Shown here in pieces: positions 11,401 to 20,923 of a DNA stretch of 23,962 nt; position 1 is the first letter of the stretch; each line of letters starts with the position of its first letter. The notes beneath the pieces were generated by a model. The model saw only the letters and a list, made by a program, of their open reading frames with translations, was not told the DNA's origin and did not search any database. The DNA is from a virus. A program made the position numbers and the translations under genes. The stretch spans positions 1 through 23,962 of IMG/VR virus record IMGVR_UViG_3300042691_003755; one strand, 5' to 3'.

Positions 11401-13179
11401 TTAAGCCCCTTTGAGTGCGGCCACTTCGGCCTCTAGGGTTTCAATACGGGCCATTGCTTCTTGCAGGGCTTTGATGGCTGCGTGATACATATCGGTCGTG
11501 TAGATCGTCTTGTACGGCACTTCGCCTTCTGTCGCTTCGCCAAATCCATCGTTGCTCACAAACTCAGGCGCAACAGATTCAACCTGCTGGGCAATTACGC
11601 CGATGTTTGCAATGTCATCGGTTTGGTCTTTGTACCTGAACGATACGATCTCAAGCGACTTGATCTTGTCCCAGTACGAAGCAACCGGGGCAATATCCGT
11701 TTTAAGCCGAGCGTCTGACAAGTTGACATCGTTTGCTTGGTAGTTGGCAAGACCGCCGTTGGATCGGATAGATGCGCGTTGGTTAGCATCGCCATAACAA
11801 CGAAGGAAAAATGAATCTGTTGAGTTTGGATCAGCGGTTAAATTGATGTATACACCATATGCGCCAGACACGGCACTAGATGTACTTGTTACACGAACAG
11901 AATCAGTATTGTTGGTTTGATAAAACTCGTTGTATCCGCCAGTGCTGTCTGCGTAGGTCCCCGTATTACTCGCCTTAAAGTACCCACCGCTGGTGATACG
12001 GGCGCGTTCTGCATTAGTCCCCGCATTTGATGTCAAAAAGCGAATAAGCGTGCTACCACCGCTAGAGTTTGCGTTAAGCGTTAACTCACCGCTACTGCCG
12101 CCATAATTCAAATAGCCGTAATTTGTATTGCTGCCATTACCATCGTGGAATGCGACTTGGGTTGTCCCGCCTACAACTGTTGCTCTACCAATTGCTGTTG
12201 TACCACCAACCATCCAATTCCCACTAGCATCCAGCGTCATTGCTTGGGTGAAGGTGATCGGGTCGCCTGCGGTGCCGGAGGGGGCGTTGTACCAAATGTG
12301 TCTTCCGCTGCTTGAGTTATAACGAGTTGCAAAACCTGTATTGATGTAGTTCCAAGTAGAACCACCAGAAGTTAAGAAAGCGTTATTTCCAATTTCAAGC
12401 GCAATATTATCAACAGCGTAAAAAGAAGCCTGTCTAACTTGTGCGACTGTTGAACCAGATGTATACCAAGCACTAGGCGTCACCCCCAGACCGAGGTTGC
12501 CGGAGGAGTTGAGGGTCATGTCTACGCTACTGCCGTTAGTGGCAAACAAGACAGAACCAACCGCCCTAATACCAAGATCGTCTGCTGTTCCGCTACCGAG
12601 AAAACCCGGTGCGCCACCGATAAAGCTCTTCACCGTTCCGGACGCAGCAAAACGCAGATGTGCGCCGTTTGCATTCGTGCTGTTAAACAGCGACATAGCA
12701 TCAGATGCGCCGCCGTTTACTTCCAACTTGTACCCCGACGAAGTCGTCCCAATCCCGACGTTGCCGGAGATGTCAACAGTCAATTTTGTACTAAAGCCGC
12801 TGCCGGGTGTTTGAACCAGAAACGCGCCAGTATTGTCCGAGCCAATGTAGGCGATAGAGCCTGAGTTTTTCAGTCCAGCAAATACGCTTGTGCCTGTGCT
12901 TTCAATCAGCGCGGCAGTGGTTGACGCACCAGAGTTGACGTGCAGCTTATTGGCAGGCGCATTCGTCCCAATCCCAACATCCCCCGCTGCACTCACCACA
13001 AACGGGCTGCTGTCCGGGTTAGCTGCATCCTCCACCAGAATGGAATCGCCAGTACCCGTCTGCGTGATCCTGAGTGCTGGAGTGGTGGCGTTCACCACCA
13101 TGACATAGCTGTCGCCTGCTTGTGCGGCTTGAATCTGCGGGACTGCTGTGTTTAAAGCTAAAACCTCGTATGCGGCCAC
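11401..13179 (-). CDS. Tail fibre with C-terminal S74 self-cleaving chaperone domain
   Basis: 592 residues. Several beta repeats carry a G-[ND]-V-G-I-G-T-type motif (DVGIGTNAP, NVGIGTTSS, NLGLGVTPS, NWMVGGTTA), typical of trimeric phage fibre shafts. The last 105 residues are an intramolecular chaperone (Peptidase S74): nucleophile candidate S488 in NLSDARLKTDI and K493, five residues on, form the Ser-Lys dyad spacing known for endosialidase chaperones. Cleavage is predicted between L487 and S488, after it has guided trimerisation. A terminal leucine-heptad coiled coil (AMARIETLEAEVAALKGA) follows. The role is probably host-surface binding. Its ribosome binding site GGGG lies about 13 nt upstream. 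Confidence 0.92.
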   Translation of the reverse strand: MAAYEVLALNTAVPQIQAAQAGDSYVMVVNATTPALRITQTGTGDSILVEDAANPDSSPFVVSAAGDVGIGTNAPANKLHVNSGASTTAALIESTGTSVFAGLKNSGSIAYIGSDNTGAFLVQTPGSGFSTKLTVDISGNVGIGTTSSGYKLEVNGGASDAMSLFNSTNANGAHLRFAASGTVKSFIGGAPGFLGSGTADDLGIRAVGSVLFATNGSSVDMTLNSSGNLGLGVTPSAWYTSGSTVAQVRQASFYAVDNIALEIGNNAFLTSGGSTWNYINTGFATRYNSSSGRHIWYNAPSGTAGDPITFTQAMTLDASGNWMVGGTTAIGRATVVGGTTQVAFHDGNGSNTNYGYLNYGGSSGELTLNANSSGGSTLIRFLTSNAGTNAERARITSGGYFKASNTGTYADSTGGYNEFYQTNNTDSVRVTSTSSAVSGAYGVYINLTADPNSTDSFFLRCYGDANQRASIRSNGGLANYQANDVNLSDARLKTDIAPVASYWDKIKSLEIVSFRYKDQTDDIANIGVIAQQVESVAPEFVSNDGFGEATEGEVPYKTIYTTDMYHAAIKALQEAMARIETLEAEVAALKGA

Positions 13180-13200: not shown

Positions 13201-13575
13201 TCAGGCCCAGATCCTTACAGGGTTTGCCGGTGTGACCTTGAAGGCGTCCAGCTCCGGCACGAGGTGATCGGCCGCCAGGCGCACGTTAACGTGCCAGCCT
13301 TCGATCGGTGCCATCTCGGGCTGCTCGCCCATGTCGGTCTCAATCGTCTCGCCGGTCGGCTTGTAGATCACGCCCACCGTGTCGATCGTGGCGCCGGGTG
13401 CGGGTGCGTGGCCTGCGGGCGACAGGATGGCGCCTTCGGCGTCGAGAATCGCCTGCGTCTCGATAAGGAGCCCAGCGGCGGCAAGTTGCTCGGTGGCTTC
13501 TTGTTCCGAGGCGAACCGCAGCATCAGGTCGTTCCAGAGCGGCACGGGAGGGGTCAGTGGGAGATCGTCAAGCAT
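13201..13575 (-). CDS. Conserved 124-aa phage protein of unknown function near fibre genes
   Basis: The protein begins MLDDLPLTPPVPLW, with NDLMLRFASEQEATEQL (a helical segment), then an acidic middle, a GWHVNVRLAADHLVP motif and a conserved-looking end TPANPVRIWA. I have seen this arrangement in small proteins encoded beside fibre genes in lambda-like phages, but no function is known to me. The start has an excellent Shine-Dalgarno sequence, GAGGA at 4 nt, which overlaps the stop of the preceding fibre gene (TGAGGACACCATG). The strong ribosome binding site suggests substantial expression, for example as a structural or assembly partner of the adjacent fibres. Candidates are a fibre chaperone or a virion decoration. 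Confidence 0.82.
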   Translation of the reverse strand: MLDDLPLTPPVPLWNDLMLRFASEQEATEQLAAAGLLIETQAILDAEGAILSPAGHAPAPGATIDTVGVIYKPTGETIETDMGEQPEMAPIEGWHVNVRLAADHLVPELDAFKVTPANPVRIWA

Positions 13576-17578: not shown

Positions 17579-18829
17579 TCAGGCGATGTCAGCGTCGCCG
17601 TAGCAGAAGGACACTGCATTGCGAACCGCAATGTCGATGTCCTGCAGCGCCACGACGCGGACCGTGCCGGCGGTCGAACCGGAGTACGGATCAACCATCA
17701 GGTCAAGGCCAGCCCACATGCCGATGAGCAGGTCAGCAAAGTTGCCAAAGAACACGTCGCCGGCGGTCACCTGGTTCGAGGTCTCAGTGCGATAGCCGTT
17801 GACCGTGTTGCCAGGCTCCCACACGAACTGAGCCGTGTTGGTCGCTTTCTCGGTGGTCTTCAGAGCACCGCGCTGCGCCGGGTTGAACAGGTAGACCATC
17901 GTGCCGATATCGGCGTTGTCGGTCGCAACCTCGGTCTCCATCGCCACCAACTCCGCAAACGTCGGGTTAGTCGCAGCGAAGTCCTTGGTGTTGACGCCAG
18001 TCTGGTTTTTGATACCGGTCGGCTGGTTGCTAGAACCAGAGCCGTACAGCGCAGCCGCATCAATCGCAAGCGCGATAACTGACGACAGGTCGCGGCGAAC
18101 CATTGCCTCAACGTCGATCGACGACTGGTTCAGCAAGCGGCGGCTGATATCCGTCCACGCACCGACCGTCTTCGGGTTCATCGTCACCTGCGCTAGGGTC
18201 TGCTGCGACTCGGTCGGAGCCGAGTTCTCAGCCACCCAGTACGCGGTCGCCGCAGCAGACTGCTTAGGGATCGCCACATTGCCCACCAGGCCAGACAGCA
18301 TGGTCGCGCCAGAACGCATCACCACCGCGCGGTTGCGCAGCATCTCGATGAACGAAGCGGCCAACAGGTCGGTGGCGACAGTGAAGCCACCAGCGTTGTT
18401 GGTGCCAGCAGTCAGGTCACGCTTGTTGCGCAGGATCTCGCTGGGCACGAAGATGCCGCGGCTCGACTTGCCGGCAGCTTTGGCACCGGCCTCAGACACC
18501 TCACGCTCAAACGCAGCAGCTTCCCATGCAGCGCGGTCGCCGGGGTTGGCCAGCGCGTTCATGGCGCGGAGGAAGGAATACTCACGAACCTCTTTCTGCG
18601 TGAGGCCGATGTCGGTTTCAGTACCAGTGACAGGTTTCTGTTCCACGGAAATGCTCTCCAGAATAGCGGCGCGGGCCTCGTCAAGGCTCTTGCCAGAATC
18701 AATCAAGGTTCGCGCGAGGTCTTGCTGCTTGAAGCGCTCGCCCAGCGCGGAGATAGAGGCGATACGCGACCGTTCGGCTTCTGCAGCCTGCGTCGCAATC
18801 GTCTGGATATCGACGGTTTGCTCAGACAT
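17579..18829 (-). CDS. Nested internal start: major capsid protein with delta domain alone (416 aa)
   Basis: An in-frame ATG at 18829-18827 (MSEQTVDIQTIATQ) has a strong Shine-Dalgarno sequence GAGGA 4 nt upstream. The context TGAGGACACTATG differs by only one base from the start region of the 124-aa gene (TGAGGACACCATG), a start that is independently supported. The start falls at the protease/capsid boundary, just before the helical delta region. It would give a protein of the usual size for an HK97-type capsid precursor. The long fusion and the short form could then be made together, supplying protease in a small share and capsid in excess, as with lambda C and Nu3. Protein evidence is lacking. 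Confidence 0.6.
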   Translation of the reverse strand: MSEQTVDIQTIATQAAEAERSRIASISALGERFKQQDLARTLIDSGKSLDEARAAILESISVEQKPVTGTETDIGLTQKEVREYSFLRAMNALANPGDRAAWEAAAFEREVSEAGAKAAGKSSRGIFVPSEILRNKRDLTAGTNNAGGFTVATDLLAASFIEMLRNRAVVMRSGATMLSGLVGNVAIPKQSAAATAYWVAENSAPTESQQTLAQVTMNPKTVGAWTDISRRLLNQSSIDVEAMVRRDLSSVIALAIDAAALYGSGSSNQPTGIKNQTGVNTKDFAATNPTFAELVAMETEVATDNADIGTMVYLFNPAQRGALKTTEKATNTAQFVWEPGNTVNGYRTETSNQVTAGDVFFGNFADLLIGMWAGLDLMVDPYSGSTAGTVRVVALQDIDIAVRNAVSFCYGDADIA

Positions 18830-19393
18830 AGTGTCCTCATTGGTGGTTTCGGCAGGCTGTGCCGGTGGATCCTCGCGCGTCAGATTGACCGCGCGCTTCT
18901 CATTGGCCTCCGCCCGGCCGATCCCGACTGTTGGATCGGCAGGAATGGTGACCACTGAAACCTCATAGGCTTCCCAACTTGTCGCCGTGTACGTTGACTG
19001 GCCGGACTTCTTGCTCTCGACCATGTCCATGATGCGATAGCCAAACGACACATTGCGCAGAATGCCGTCGTTGACCAGGCCCATCACCTCGTCGGCTCGA
19101 GCAGTCTTGGCAAACCGTACCTTGGCGTATCCGCGCTTGTCTTTGTCAATCCAGGCACGCTCGACAACACCGACGATCTCGTCCATGTTGTGATTGAACA
19201 GCAGCGGAGCGCCATCGTTCAGCCGCTTGAGATCCGCAGCGCCAGCGTTGTGCGACAGCACTTCATCGCCAAACCAACGCTCGACAGGAAGCTCACTCGA
19301 AAACGGAAACTCCATTGTGCGCGACTCTGCGTCAATGGTAATAGCTTCCGTGGACGCCGCCCGCGTCAGGACCGGCAATTCAAGTTTTTCCAT
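17579..19393 (-). CDS. Fused HK97-type prohead protease and major capsid protein
   Basis: The frame extends to 19411, but the ATG at 19393 (MEKLELPVLTRA; GGGTGA about 6 nt upstream) has a better ribosome binding site than 19411. The product is 604 residues. Residues about 10-165 form an S78 protease: H68 (LFNHNMD), S116 (LRNVSFGYR) and an acidic region WEAYEVSVVTIPADP. A helical linker and delta-like domain runs to about residue 300. An HK97-fold capsid region follows (LTAGTNNAGGFTV, then VAIPKQSAAATAYWVAEN and NQPTGIKNQTG). The protease would remove the delta region during maturation. Fusion of the two occurs in some phages; separate genes are more usual. Portal and terminase are lambda-like, so the head module is mosaic. 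Confidence 0.9.
   Translation of the reverse strand: MEKLELPVLTRAASTEAITIDAESRTMEFPFSSELPVERWFGDEVLSHNAGAADLKRLNDGAPLLFNHNMDEIVGVVERAWIDKDKRGYAKVRFAKTARADEVMGLVNDGILRNVSFGYRIMDMVESKKSGQSTYTATSWEAYEVSVVTIPADPTVGIGRAEANEKRAVNLTREDPPAQPAETTNEDTMSEQTVDIQTIATQAAEAERSRIASISALGERFKQQDLARTLIDSGKSLDEARAAILESISVEQKPVTGTETDIGLTQKEVREYSFLRAMNALANPGDRAAWEAAAFEREVSEAGAKAAGKSSRGIFVPSEILRNKRDLTAGTNNAGGFTVATDLLAASFIEMLRNRAVVMRSGATMLSGLVGNVAIPKQSAAATAYWVAENSAPTESQQTLAQVTMNPKTVGAWTDISRRLLNQSSIDVEAMVRRDLSSVIALAIDAAALYGSGSSNQPTGIKNQTGVNTKDFAATNPTFAELVAMETEVATDNADIGTMVYLFNPAQRGALKTTEKATNTAQFVWEPGNTVNGYRTETSNQVTAGDVFFGNFADLLIGMWAGLDLMVDPYSGSTAGTVRVVALQDIDIAVRNAVSFCYGDADIA
18830..18840 (-). promoter_or_regulatory. 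Internal ribosome binding site for the capsid protein
   Basis: On the minus strand ATGAGGACACT directly precedes the internal ATG. GAGGA matches the 16S rRNA tail well and sits 4 nt from the start. Such a strong match inside a long coding frame is unlikely to be accidental given its place at the domain boundary. Confidence 0.6.
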
Positions 19394-19423
19394 CGTTTCA
19401 CCCGATTGCATAGAGGAATTTTA

Positions 19424-20923
19424 TCAGGTTGGCGTTTCTTCTGCCGCGTCTTCCTCAATGTCCTCCGGCTGCGGCTCGCCGTTCTCCATCGTTTCGTGCG
19501 GATCTGTATCAAACGCCAAGTCCAACGCTTCGGCCATGTCCAGCTCGCGGCGGCGCTGCTGCATCAGATCCTCAAGGTCGCCACCCTGCTGAGCCACGAC
19601 ATCAGCCAACGTCGTAAACCCGCAGCGCACCGCTTCCTTGTACGCGCCCATCTCTTTGGCCGGATCCACCCACTGCCAGCCGCGCGGAATCCAGCGCACC
19701 TCACGGAACGGCGCAGGGTTCAGCTCGTACTGCGCAAGCTGCAGCTCACCCGACAACACCGCCCGGTCAAGCCACTCCTCGAACACCCGGCGATGGAAGC
19801 ATTCGATCATCCAGCTTTGCAGCACGCGCCACTGGTCGCGGTCGTCCAGCAGCGACAGCCGGCTGCTCGAGTAGTTCGACTCCGAGTAATCACGGCTCAG
19901 GGTTGCGTAACTCACCCCAATCCCCGCCGCCATCGACCGCAGCATCGCGCGAACGAACGGCTCGTACTGCCCACCTGGACGCGCCGGCTTGGCTTCCTGG
20001 TACGTCTCACCCGGCAACAAGCGCTCGATCTTGCCCGGCTCAAAGTTCGACACCGGCTGGTCATCCATCGTTACGTCTTGCATCGCGTCGTCTTCAGGCG
20101 ACGTGATAAACCCCATCCGGCAGGCTTCAGCACGGGCCGCGATCACCTCGGCCTCGGTGTAGCCGTTGAGGTGGTGCATGCGCATGATCGCCGACGCGAT
20201 CCACGGGAACCCGCGGGTCTGACCCGGCCGCTCAACCCGGTACAAGTGCAGCACCTCGTCGGCGCTCACGCGCACAGTGCGGCTGTCCGTTGTGCCGGTA
20301 GCTAGCGGGTAGTCGCCAGGGTGCTGCACTCGGAAGTGATACGCGACCGGTCGGCCCCACTGGTCACGCTCGATGCCCATGCGGATGTCGTTGCCGGTGT
20401 TCCGCGCAACTTCGTTCAGATCCACGTCCAGTCGATCGGCTTCGATAACCTCAAGCGAGAGCGGCACGCGCCCACCACCCATCGCCTGGCGCACCATCCG
20501 AATGAACACCTCGCCCGACTCAGCCGCCGACCGAATAGCCAAGCGCTCGATGTCAGCAAACGACAGAATCCCAGCCACATGGCAGTACCGCGCCCGCTTC
20601 CACTTGGCCCAACTGGCCTCGATCGCCGAGTTCGCAGCATCATCCATGCGGCCACCGCGGCGCATGCGCACCGACGCCTGCATGCTGATGCCTTGACCGA
20701 CCACGTTGTTCTCGATCACCCGCAGCGCGTTCCGGACGTAATCGTTGTTCTGCCCGAGGTCTCGAGCACGCTGGCGCAGCGTCTTGAGGTCCTTCCGCAG
20801 GTCAGCGTCCAGCGAGTTGCTGCTAGCCATCCAGTCCGACACCAAGCGGTCGTACACAGCCCCCTGGAACTTGCGGACAACCTTAACCTCAGTCTTGCGC
20901 TTGAACCAATCTCGCCAACCCAT
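19424..20923 (-). CDS. B: Portal protein, lambda gpB-type
   Basis: The frame extends to 20959, but the ATG at 20923-20921 (MGWRDWFKRKTEV) is chosen: it follows the stop of the gpW-like gene by one base (TGAGATG) and has GGGGG about 6 nt upstream. The product is 499 residues. Recognisable family features are RDLGQNNDYVRNALRVIENNVVG near the N-terminus, SGEVFIRMVR, LSLEVIEADRLD, YHFRVQHPGDYP, VLHLYRVERPGQTRGFPWIA, and YSESNYSSSRLSLLDDRDQWRVLQ. The protein forms a dodecameric ring at one vertex through which DNA enters and leaves. The C-terminus is acidic (EDIEEDAAEE). It lies between joining protein and capsid genes, as in lambda B. Confidence 0.94.
   Translation of the reverse strand: MGWRDWFKRKTEVKVVRKFQGAVYDRLVSDWMASSNSLDADLRKDLKTLRQRARDLGQNNDYVRNALRVIENNVVGQGISMQASVRMRRGGRMDDAANSAIEASWAKWKRARYCHVAGILSFADIERLAIRSAAESGEVFIRMVRQAMGGGRVPLSLEVIEADRLDVDLNEVARNTGNDIRMGIERDQWGRPVAYHFRVQHPGDYPLATGTTDSRTVRVSADEVLHLYRVERPGQTRGFPWIASAIMRMHHLNGYTEAEVIAARAEACRMGFITSPEDDAMQDVTMDDQPVSNFEPGKIERLLPGETYQEAKPARPGGQYEPFVRAMLRSMAAGIGVSYATLSRDYSESNYSSSRLSLLDDRDQWRVLQSWMIECFHRRVFEEWLDRAVLSGELQLAQYELNPAPFREVRWIPRGWQWVDPAKEMGAYKEAVRCGFTTLADVVAQQGGDLEDLMQQRRRELDMAEALDLAFDTDPHETMENGEPQPEDIEEDAAEETPT

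Follow-up and report, generated by a model that had tools for sequence, protein, structure and literature searches.

The viral genome fragment analyzed here carries a prohead protease–scaffold–capsid fusion gene that very probably has two in-frame translation starts, one yielding a minority protease–scaffold–capsid fusion and the other, nested in the linker behind the protease, yielding a majority scaffold–capsid protein with which the fusion would co-assemble. Based on sequence comparisons, we put the probability of this reading at roughly 88%. The window, i.e., the whole stretch of DNA that was analyzed, covers positions 1–23,962 (23,962 nucleotides) of IMG/VR record IMGVR_UViG_3300042691_003755, and the relevant genes all lie on its minus strand (Table 1).

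A candidate nested start in a protease–scaffold–capsid fusion gene

As proposed in a first-pass annotation of this DNA, protease and capsid share one frame: a Pfam Peptidase_S78 domain (52.8 bits, cut-off 21) is followed by a Phage_capsid domain (166.3 bits, cut-off 24.2), i.e., a single-gene protease/HK97-capsid fusion. In the list of open reading frames (ORFs), the frame runs from 19393 to 17579 uninterrupted by a stop codon, and the separate-gene arrangement of HK97 gp4/gp5 is not found here. The ATG at 19393 was retained as the start of the fusion, as an alternative upstream ATG at 19411 has no room in relatives L006–L008. The fusion also matches NCBIfam NF045541 (scaf_prot_MCP2) with 190.1 bits over the N-terminal 284 model positions only, and the fusion is not filed as a member of that family because this score is under the curated cut-off of 525. 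In the alignment of relatives, including the sister clade L018–L037, the protease residue His68 is nearly invariant and Ser116 is invariant.

An AlphaFold2 model of the fusion (39 sequences, mean pLDDT 77), in which the relative domain positions are unreliable because of a pTM of 0.52, runs from a beta-rich protease to a linker with pLDDT <50, then to a helical region at residues 196–307 and to the capsid domain, which matches the R4C and HK97 structures. This linker, the part of the model with the lowest confidence, includes Met189, which places the candidate start at the boundary between domains. For the helical region, we infer a scaffold role from HK97.

Table 1 Features of the fusion gene and its candidate nested start
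Feature	Position	Strand	Basis or remark
Protease–scaffold–capsid fusion gene, 604 aa, ATG at 19393	17579..19393	-	ORF list; Pfam Peptidase_S78 + Phage_capsid
Shine–Dalgarno (SD) GGTGA of the fusion's own start, weaker, −3.8 kcal/mol	19398..19402	-	
S78 prohead protease domain, Pfam span	18923..19267	-	
Disordered linker (predicted), residues 175–198, carrying the candidate nested start	18800..18871	-	AlphaFold2 pLDDT <50; mRNA structure trough
SD GAGGA, 4 nt 5' of the nested ATG, −6.0 kcal/mol with anti-SD	18834..18838	-	
Nested ATG, candidate start codon, Met189 of the fusion	18827..18829	-	Conserved in relatives
Nested in-frame ORF, predicted scaffold–capsid protein without protease, 416 aa	17579..18829	-	
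Helical, delta-like scaffold region (predicted), residues 196–307	18473..18808	-	AlphaFold2 secondary structure
HK97-fold capsid domain, residues 335–599	17597..18391	-	Pfam; PDB 8gta sequence and fold match

At the candidate start, the minus strand reads ...AAACCACCAATGAGGACACT followed by ATG TCT GAG... in the frame of the fusion (longer context: ...CCACCAATGAGGACACT / ATGTCTGAG...). The GAGGA and its distance to the ATG, the lengths of both products (604 residues from 19393 and 416 from 18829), and the single-base difference between the 13-nt context of this ATG (TGAGGACACTATG) and that of the start at 13575 (TGAGGACACCATG) are all as the first-pass annotation had described them. An SD-like tetramer 4–9 nt upstream is found for 23 of the 342 minus-strand ATGs of the window, real starts included, and from the window sequence alone the nested SD–ATG pair would thus exceed chance only modestly. 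As a weak test of whether a nested promoter, instead of a nested start, might be involved, 18500–19700 was scanned for sigma-70-like sites, and none was found.

Elsewhere in the window, the adjacent minus-strand genes at 668–1333 and 1334–2425 encode similar N-termini (MSQHDY..AN.....RADLNALA), a resemblance that looks like the duplication of a tail-fibre attachment module. A large tail gene at 11401–13179 (minus strand), which lies between the tail-tube and tape-measure regions together with further fibre-like genes, has a C-terminus resembling an intramolecular chaperone (DARLKTDI...FRYKD).

Conservation of the candidate nested start in related fusion genes

To evaluate conservation, 80 viral contigs, 18 genome loci, and ~20 isolated phages were gathered, and 112 fused-ORF sequences were grouped into 58 clusters at 85% identity, the relatives spanning 32–100% identity. 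The 12 nearest divergent relatives (58–85% identity) all carry GAGG and an in-frame ATG despite indels and codon changes, and the loss of the GAGGA among close relatives, which the first-pass annotation had named as the observation that would count against a nested start, was not seen in any of them.

Using an SD cut-off of −5.4 kcal/mol, which was picked after a first look at the SD table of the relatives, we detected an SD-preceded in-frame ATG at residues 170–200 in 40 of the 58 clusters, compared to 16.3 ± 2.7 in 300 synonymous-codon shuffles (maximum 24) in which codons were permuted within each gene and proteins left unchanged; these counts include clusters that share ancestry and are not fully independent, and the alignment-based residue mapping may pull Mets together. 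An SD was carried by 40 of 61 linker Mets, as opposed to 65 of 794 other internal Mets (Fisher p = 4e-25), and an out-of-frame ATG with an SD occurred within residues 180–194 in just 2 of the 58 clusters. When sequences were clustered at 65% identity, the signal was present in 24 of 33 clusters (null 11.0 ± 2.3), and at 55% identity in 16 of 22 (null 5.3 ± 1.6). Overall, the signal clearly exceeds chance across the 58 clusters, as judged against these nulls. Among the clusters with the signal, 29 have a nested SD stronger than the gene's own and 10 have a weaker one, for a set selected on the nested SD and with the own start defined as the best candidate within ~60 codons upstream.

Position, codon phase, and mRNA structure

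We also applied an SD-blind test, in which the linker ATG (present in 54 of the 58 clusters) was picked regardless of SD, and which is therefore unaffected by the post-hoc choice of cut-off. An SD-like stretch was located directly 5' of the blind-chosen ATG in 72% of sequences, with frequencies of 48–63% at 3-nt offsets from it and 0–20% at all other offsets between −60 and +60. The aligned SD–ATG spacing in relatives was mostly 5 or 8 nt, the codon phase of the linker SD was split 33/4/2, and the peptides encoding it varied (TTNEDTM, TQRSDPM, TQKRDIPM, ITIRGAEM, and ATPGDRSM). As neither the encoding peptide nor the codon phase of the SD is constant, selection acts on the nucleotides.

This bears on a reading in which conservation would concern a peptide motif, i.e., an acidic linker followed by Met that might for instance be a protease self-cleavage site, and not a start. 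Such a motif, E-(E/D)-x-(T/P/S)-M-(S/T), does recur in the close clade, but the peptides vary widely outside of it (the last four of those listed above), peptide-preserving synonymous shuffles lose most of the signal, and every close relative uses GAG for the Glu at the SD, a codon whose share among the Glu codons of these ORFs is 56%. We thus consider a peptide motif very improbable as the explanation.

The predicted mRNA structure amounts to −5.5 kcal/mol at the linker ATG, compared to −10 to −14 kcal/mol in windows at least 40 nt away; relative to synonymous shuffles, it is weaker there by 1.39 ± 0.37 kcal/mol, a predicted trough of the kind expected for a real start. The SD-like stretch sits exactly in the inter-domain linker, which would also suit a pause for elongating ribosomes at the domain boundary, during which the protease would fold first and no initiation would take place. 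A pause, however, requires no ATG at initiation spacing, whereas the SD peak here is anchored to an ATG in the reading frame, and the start region is unstructured as at real starts; we see hardly any chance that pausing accounts for the signal.

Distant fusions and a split relative

Scans of more distant fusions recovered the signal in 27 of 38 clusters of Stenotrophomonas S1-like fusions (against 15.9 ± 2.5), in 6 of 7 clusters of phiHAP-1-like fusions (null 1.9 ± 1.0), and in 15 of 15 for Pseudomonas LPPA33-like fusions, for which the null was high (9.6 ± 1.8); it was patchier in the Arya-like group. An SD-preceded start just 3' of the protease was also observed in Microbacterium KayPaulus, Rhodobacter RcDormio, Vibrio 1.055.O, Paenibacillus Pd_22F, and DCP80, which represent a different capsid family (Phage_capsid_4) or remote hosts and, being single sequences, are individually weak cases.

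Two annotation issues came up among these phages. Escherichia phage DCP80 (L122, PQ671644.1) is classed within Straboviridae (T4-like) and yet carries an HK97-type protease–capsid fusion, so that its taxonomy label looks doubtful. In VP882 (L114), the antisense hypothetical proteins annotated within the fusion gene at 1621–1818 and 2410–2817 are probably spurious.

The first-pass annotation had also suggested a comparison with phages in which the two genes are separate, and one relative, L257, shows this arrangement, an outcome in favor of the nested start. There, an S78 protease ORF of 204 residues ends in a stop codon, followed 18 nt later, after GGGAGGATTCCAAA, by the GTG of a 437-aa capsid ORF (opening sequence GGGAGGATTCCAAAGTG); a stop codon, and then an SD and a capsid start, are thus found at the place equivalent to the linker start. 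L257 was the only split relative used: L259 looks split as well, with an upstream ORF that has no Pfam match, and the capsid-only relative L091 was set aside as a split control, having no protease nearby and an ORF that begins within the scaffold region. This last ORF (L091:2486–3574, 362 aa, 40% identity) is located on a Nitrospina MAG contig, in a locus that has a primase-like ORF upstream and no protease, and that may be a phage satellite with its own capsid gene.

Fusions without the candidate nested start

At the −5.4 kcal/mol cut-off, the SD–ATG signal was absent from 18 of the 58 clusters. In the sister clade L018–L037 and L040 (~60% identity), the site of the nested ATG reads ATT with no good SD and the fusion is intact, which reflects either a true loss or another way to make the short form. 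The linker signal was also absent from cyanophages S-LBS1, S-CBS1, and S-CBS3. Neighboring genes used an SD in 34% of cases in loci without the signal, compared to 55% in loci with it, and low SD use may thus explain part, although not all, of these exceptions. Given the sister clade and these cyanophages, the nested start is common but not obligatory.

The same exceptions speak for a reading in which the full-length fusion is the sole product, the protease of each shell subunit self-cleaves during maturation, and the linker SD–ATG is left over from a once separate gene, as a relic, or due to chance: the 18 clusters, sister clade included, have an intact fusion without the start, so that one product is apparently enough, and the invariance of Ser116 extends to an alignment that takes in the sister clade. 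A relic would nonetheless be expected to decay, whereas the signal is kept at 32–50% protein identity, with differing codons and phases and with the mRNA structure trough, and we regard a sole full-length product as unlikely.

Proposed expression and assembly

For the preferred dual-start reading, we infer the following sequence of events. A minority of ribosomes would initiate at 19393 and produce the 604-residue protease–scaffold–capsid fusion, and the GAGGA at 18838–18834 would recruit more ribosomes to 18829, leading to the 416-residue scaffold–capsid protein. Because the scaffold and shell domains are common to both, the long and short forms should co-assemble, with the fusion as the minority subunit through which the protease would enter the prohead; once inside, the protease would cut the scaffold, and itself, off the shell subunits.

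In HK97, the coiled-coil towers that surround the portal are built from residues 2–66 of the shell precursor (PMC10275583). A protease on the end of each such tower would plausibly be an obstacle, which would favor the short form. The shell of R4C consists of 415 capsid subunits and is derived from a homologous fusion gene (PMC10276861). In our analysis, this gene displayed a strong nested SD (−9.5). The deposited R4C capsid chain corresponds to fusion residues 362–629, and the modelled shell therefore comprises neither protease nor scaffold; because the mature shell lacks the N-terminal part in either case, a sole fusion and a dual start cannot be told apart from the mature virion. No protease or cleavage data were found in the R4C papers.

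Taken together, these comparisons support the nested start read from the sequence in the first-pass annotation. Its argument from stoichiometry would follow from this reading: protease–capsid fusions, which are frequently annotated, pose a puzzle in that a shell needs hundreds of subunits and only a modest amount of protease, which a conserved second start would resolve. If so, two precursors are predicted in proheads, along with the real N-terminus of the main shell precursor, which would be useful to anyone expressing such capsids, and a major structural protein would currently go unannotated in a large number of phages. On a broader scale, we lean slightly towards dual-start expression being a general rule for tailed-phage protease–capsid fusions, arisen or kept across different capsid families, in which minority shell subunits would deliver the protease covalently and their share would be set by the ratio of the two ribosome-binding sites. 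A conserved second start would also carry the principle of the nested protease, as in lambda, Mu, and herpesviruses, over from the scaffold to the shell protein.

Comparison with known systems

In lambda C/Nu3, a nested in-frame start gives an assembly protein without the protease. A nested in-frame start of this type is also known for Mu I/Z, and was inferred for the P. aeruginosa Mu-like phage PaMx73 (PMC4378225). What these systems share with the fusion gene is an SD-preceded start codon, a candidate one in the fusion gene, that is located in frame directly behind the protease domain; they differ in that the short product is scaffold alone in the former, next to a separate shell gene, whereas it would combine scaffold and shell protein here. 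Since the short ORF runs through Phage_capsid, the fusion represents a variant, and not a member, of the C/Nu3 and I/Z type. Herpesvirus UL26 and UL26.5 overlap in the same frame and share their 3' end; the longer gene adds a protease, and the shorter one encodes the scaffold (PMC4498786). This is likewise a nested in-frame pair of a long form with protease and a short form without, but the short product is scaffold only, and UL26.5 has no Shine–Dalgarno start because the host is eukaryotic; in the related cytomegalovirus family, the transcripts are nested and 3'-coterminal.

Fusion genes of the same kind are represented by NCBIfam NF045541/NF045540, and protease–capsid fusions have already been annotated in Arthrobacter and Microbacterium phages (PMC5513430, PMC7302621) and in Rhodobacter cluster RcC (PMC8601537). 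The portions of these sources that we consulted do not mention a second start, and the records examined list one product. A search of the full-text literature, with subscription journals mostly outside its scope, did not turn up any description of a nested start for a protease–capsid fusion, which does not in itself prove novelty. Finally, the HK97 gp4 protease and gp5 scaffold(delta)–capsid proteins include the same domains in the same order, and the predicted 416-aa product has the layout of gp5. While HK97 encodes them in two separate genes, here they form a single frame with a candidate nested start, and the separate-gene state is found in relative L257.
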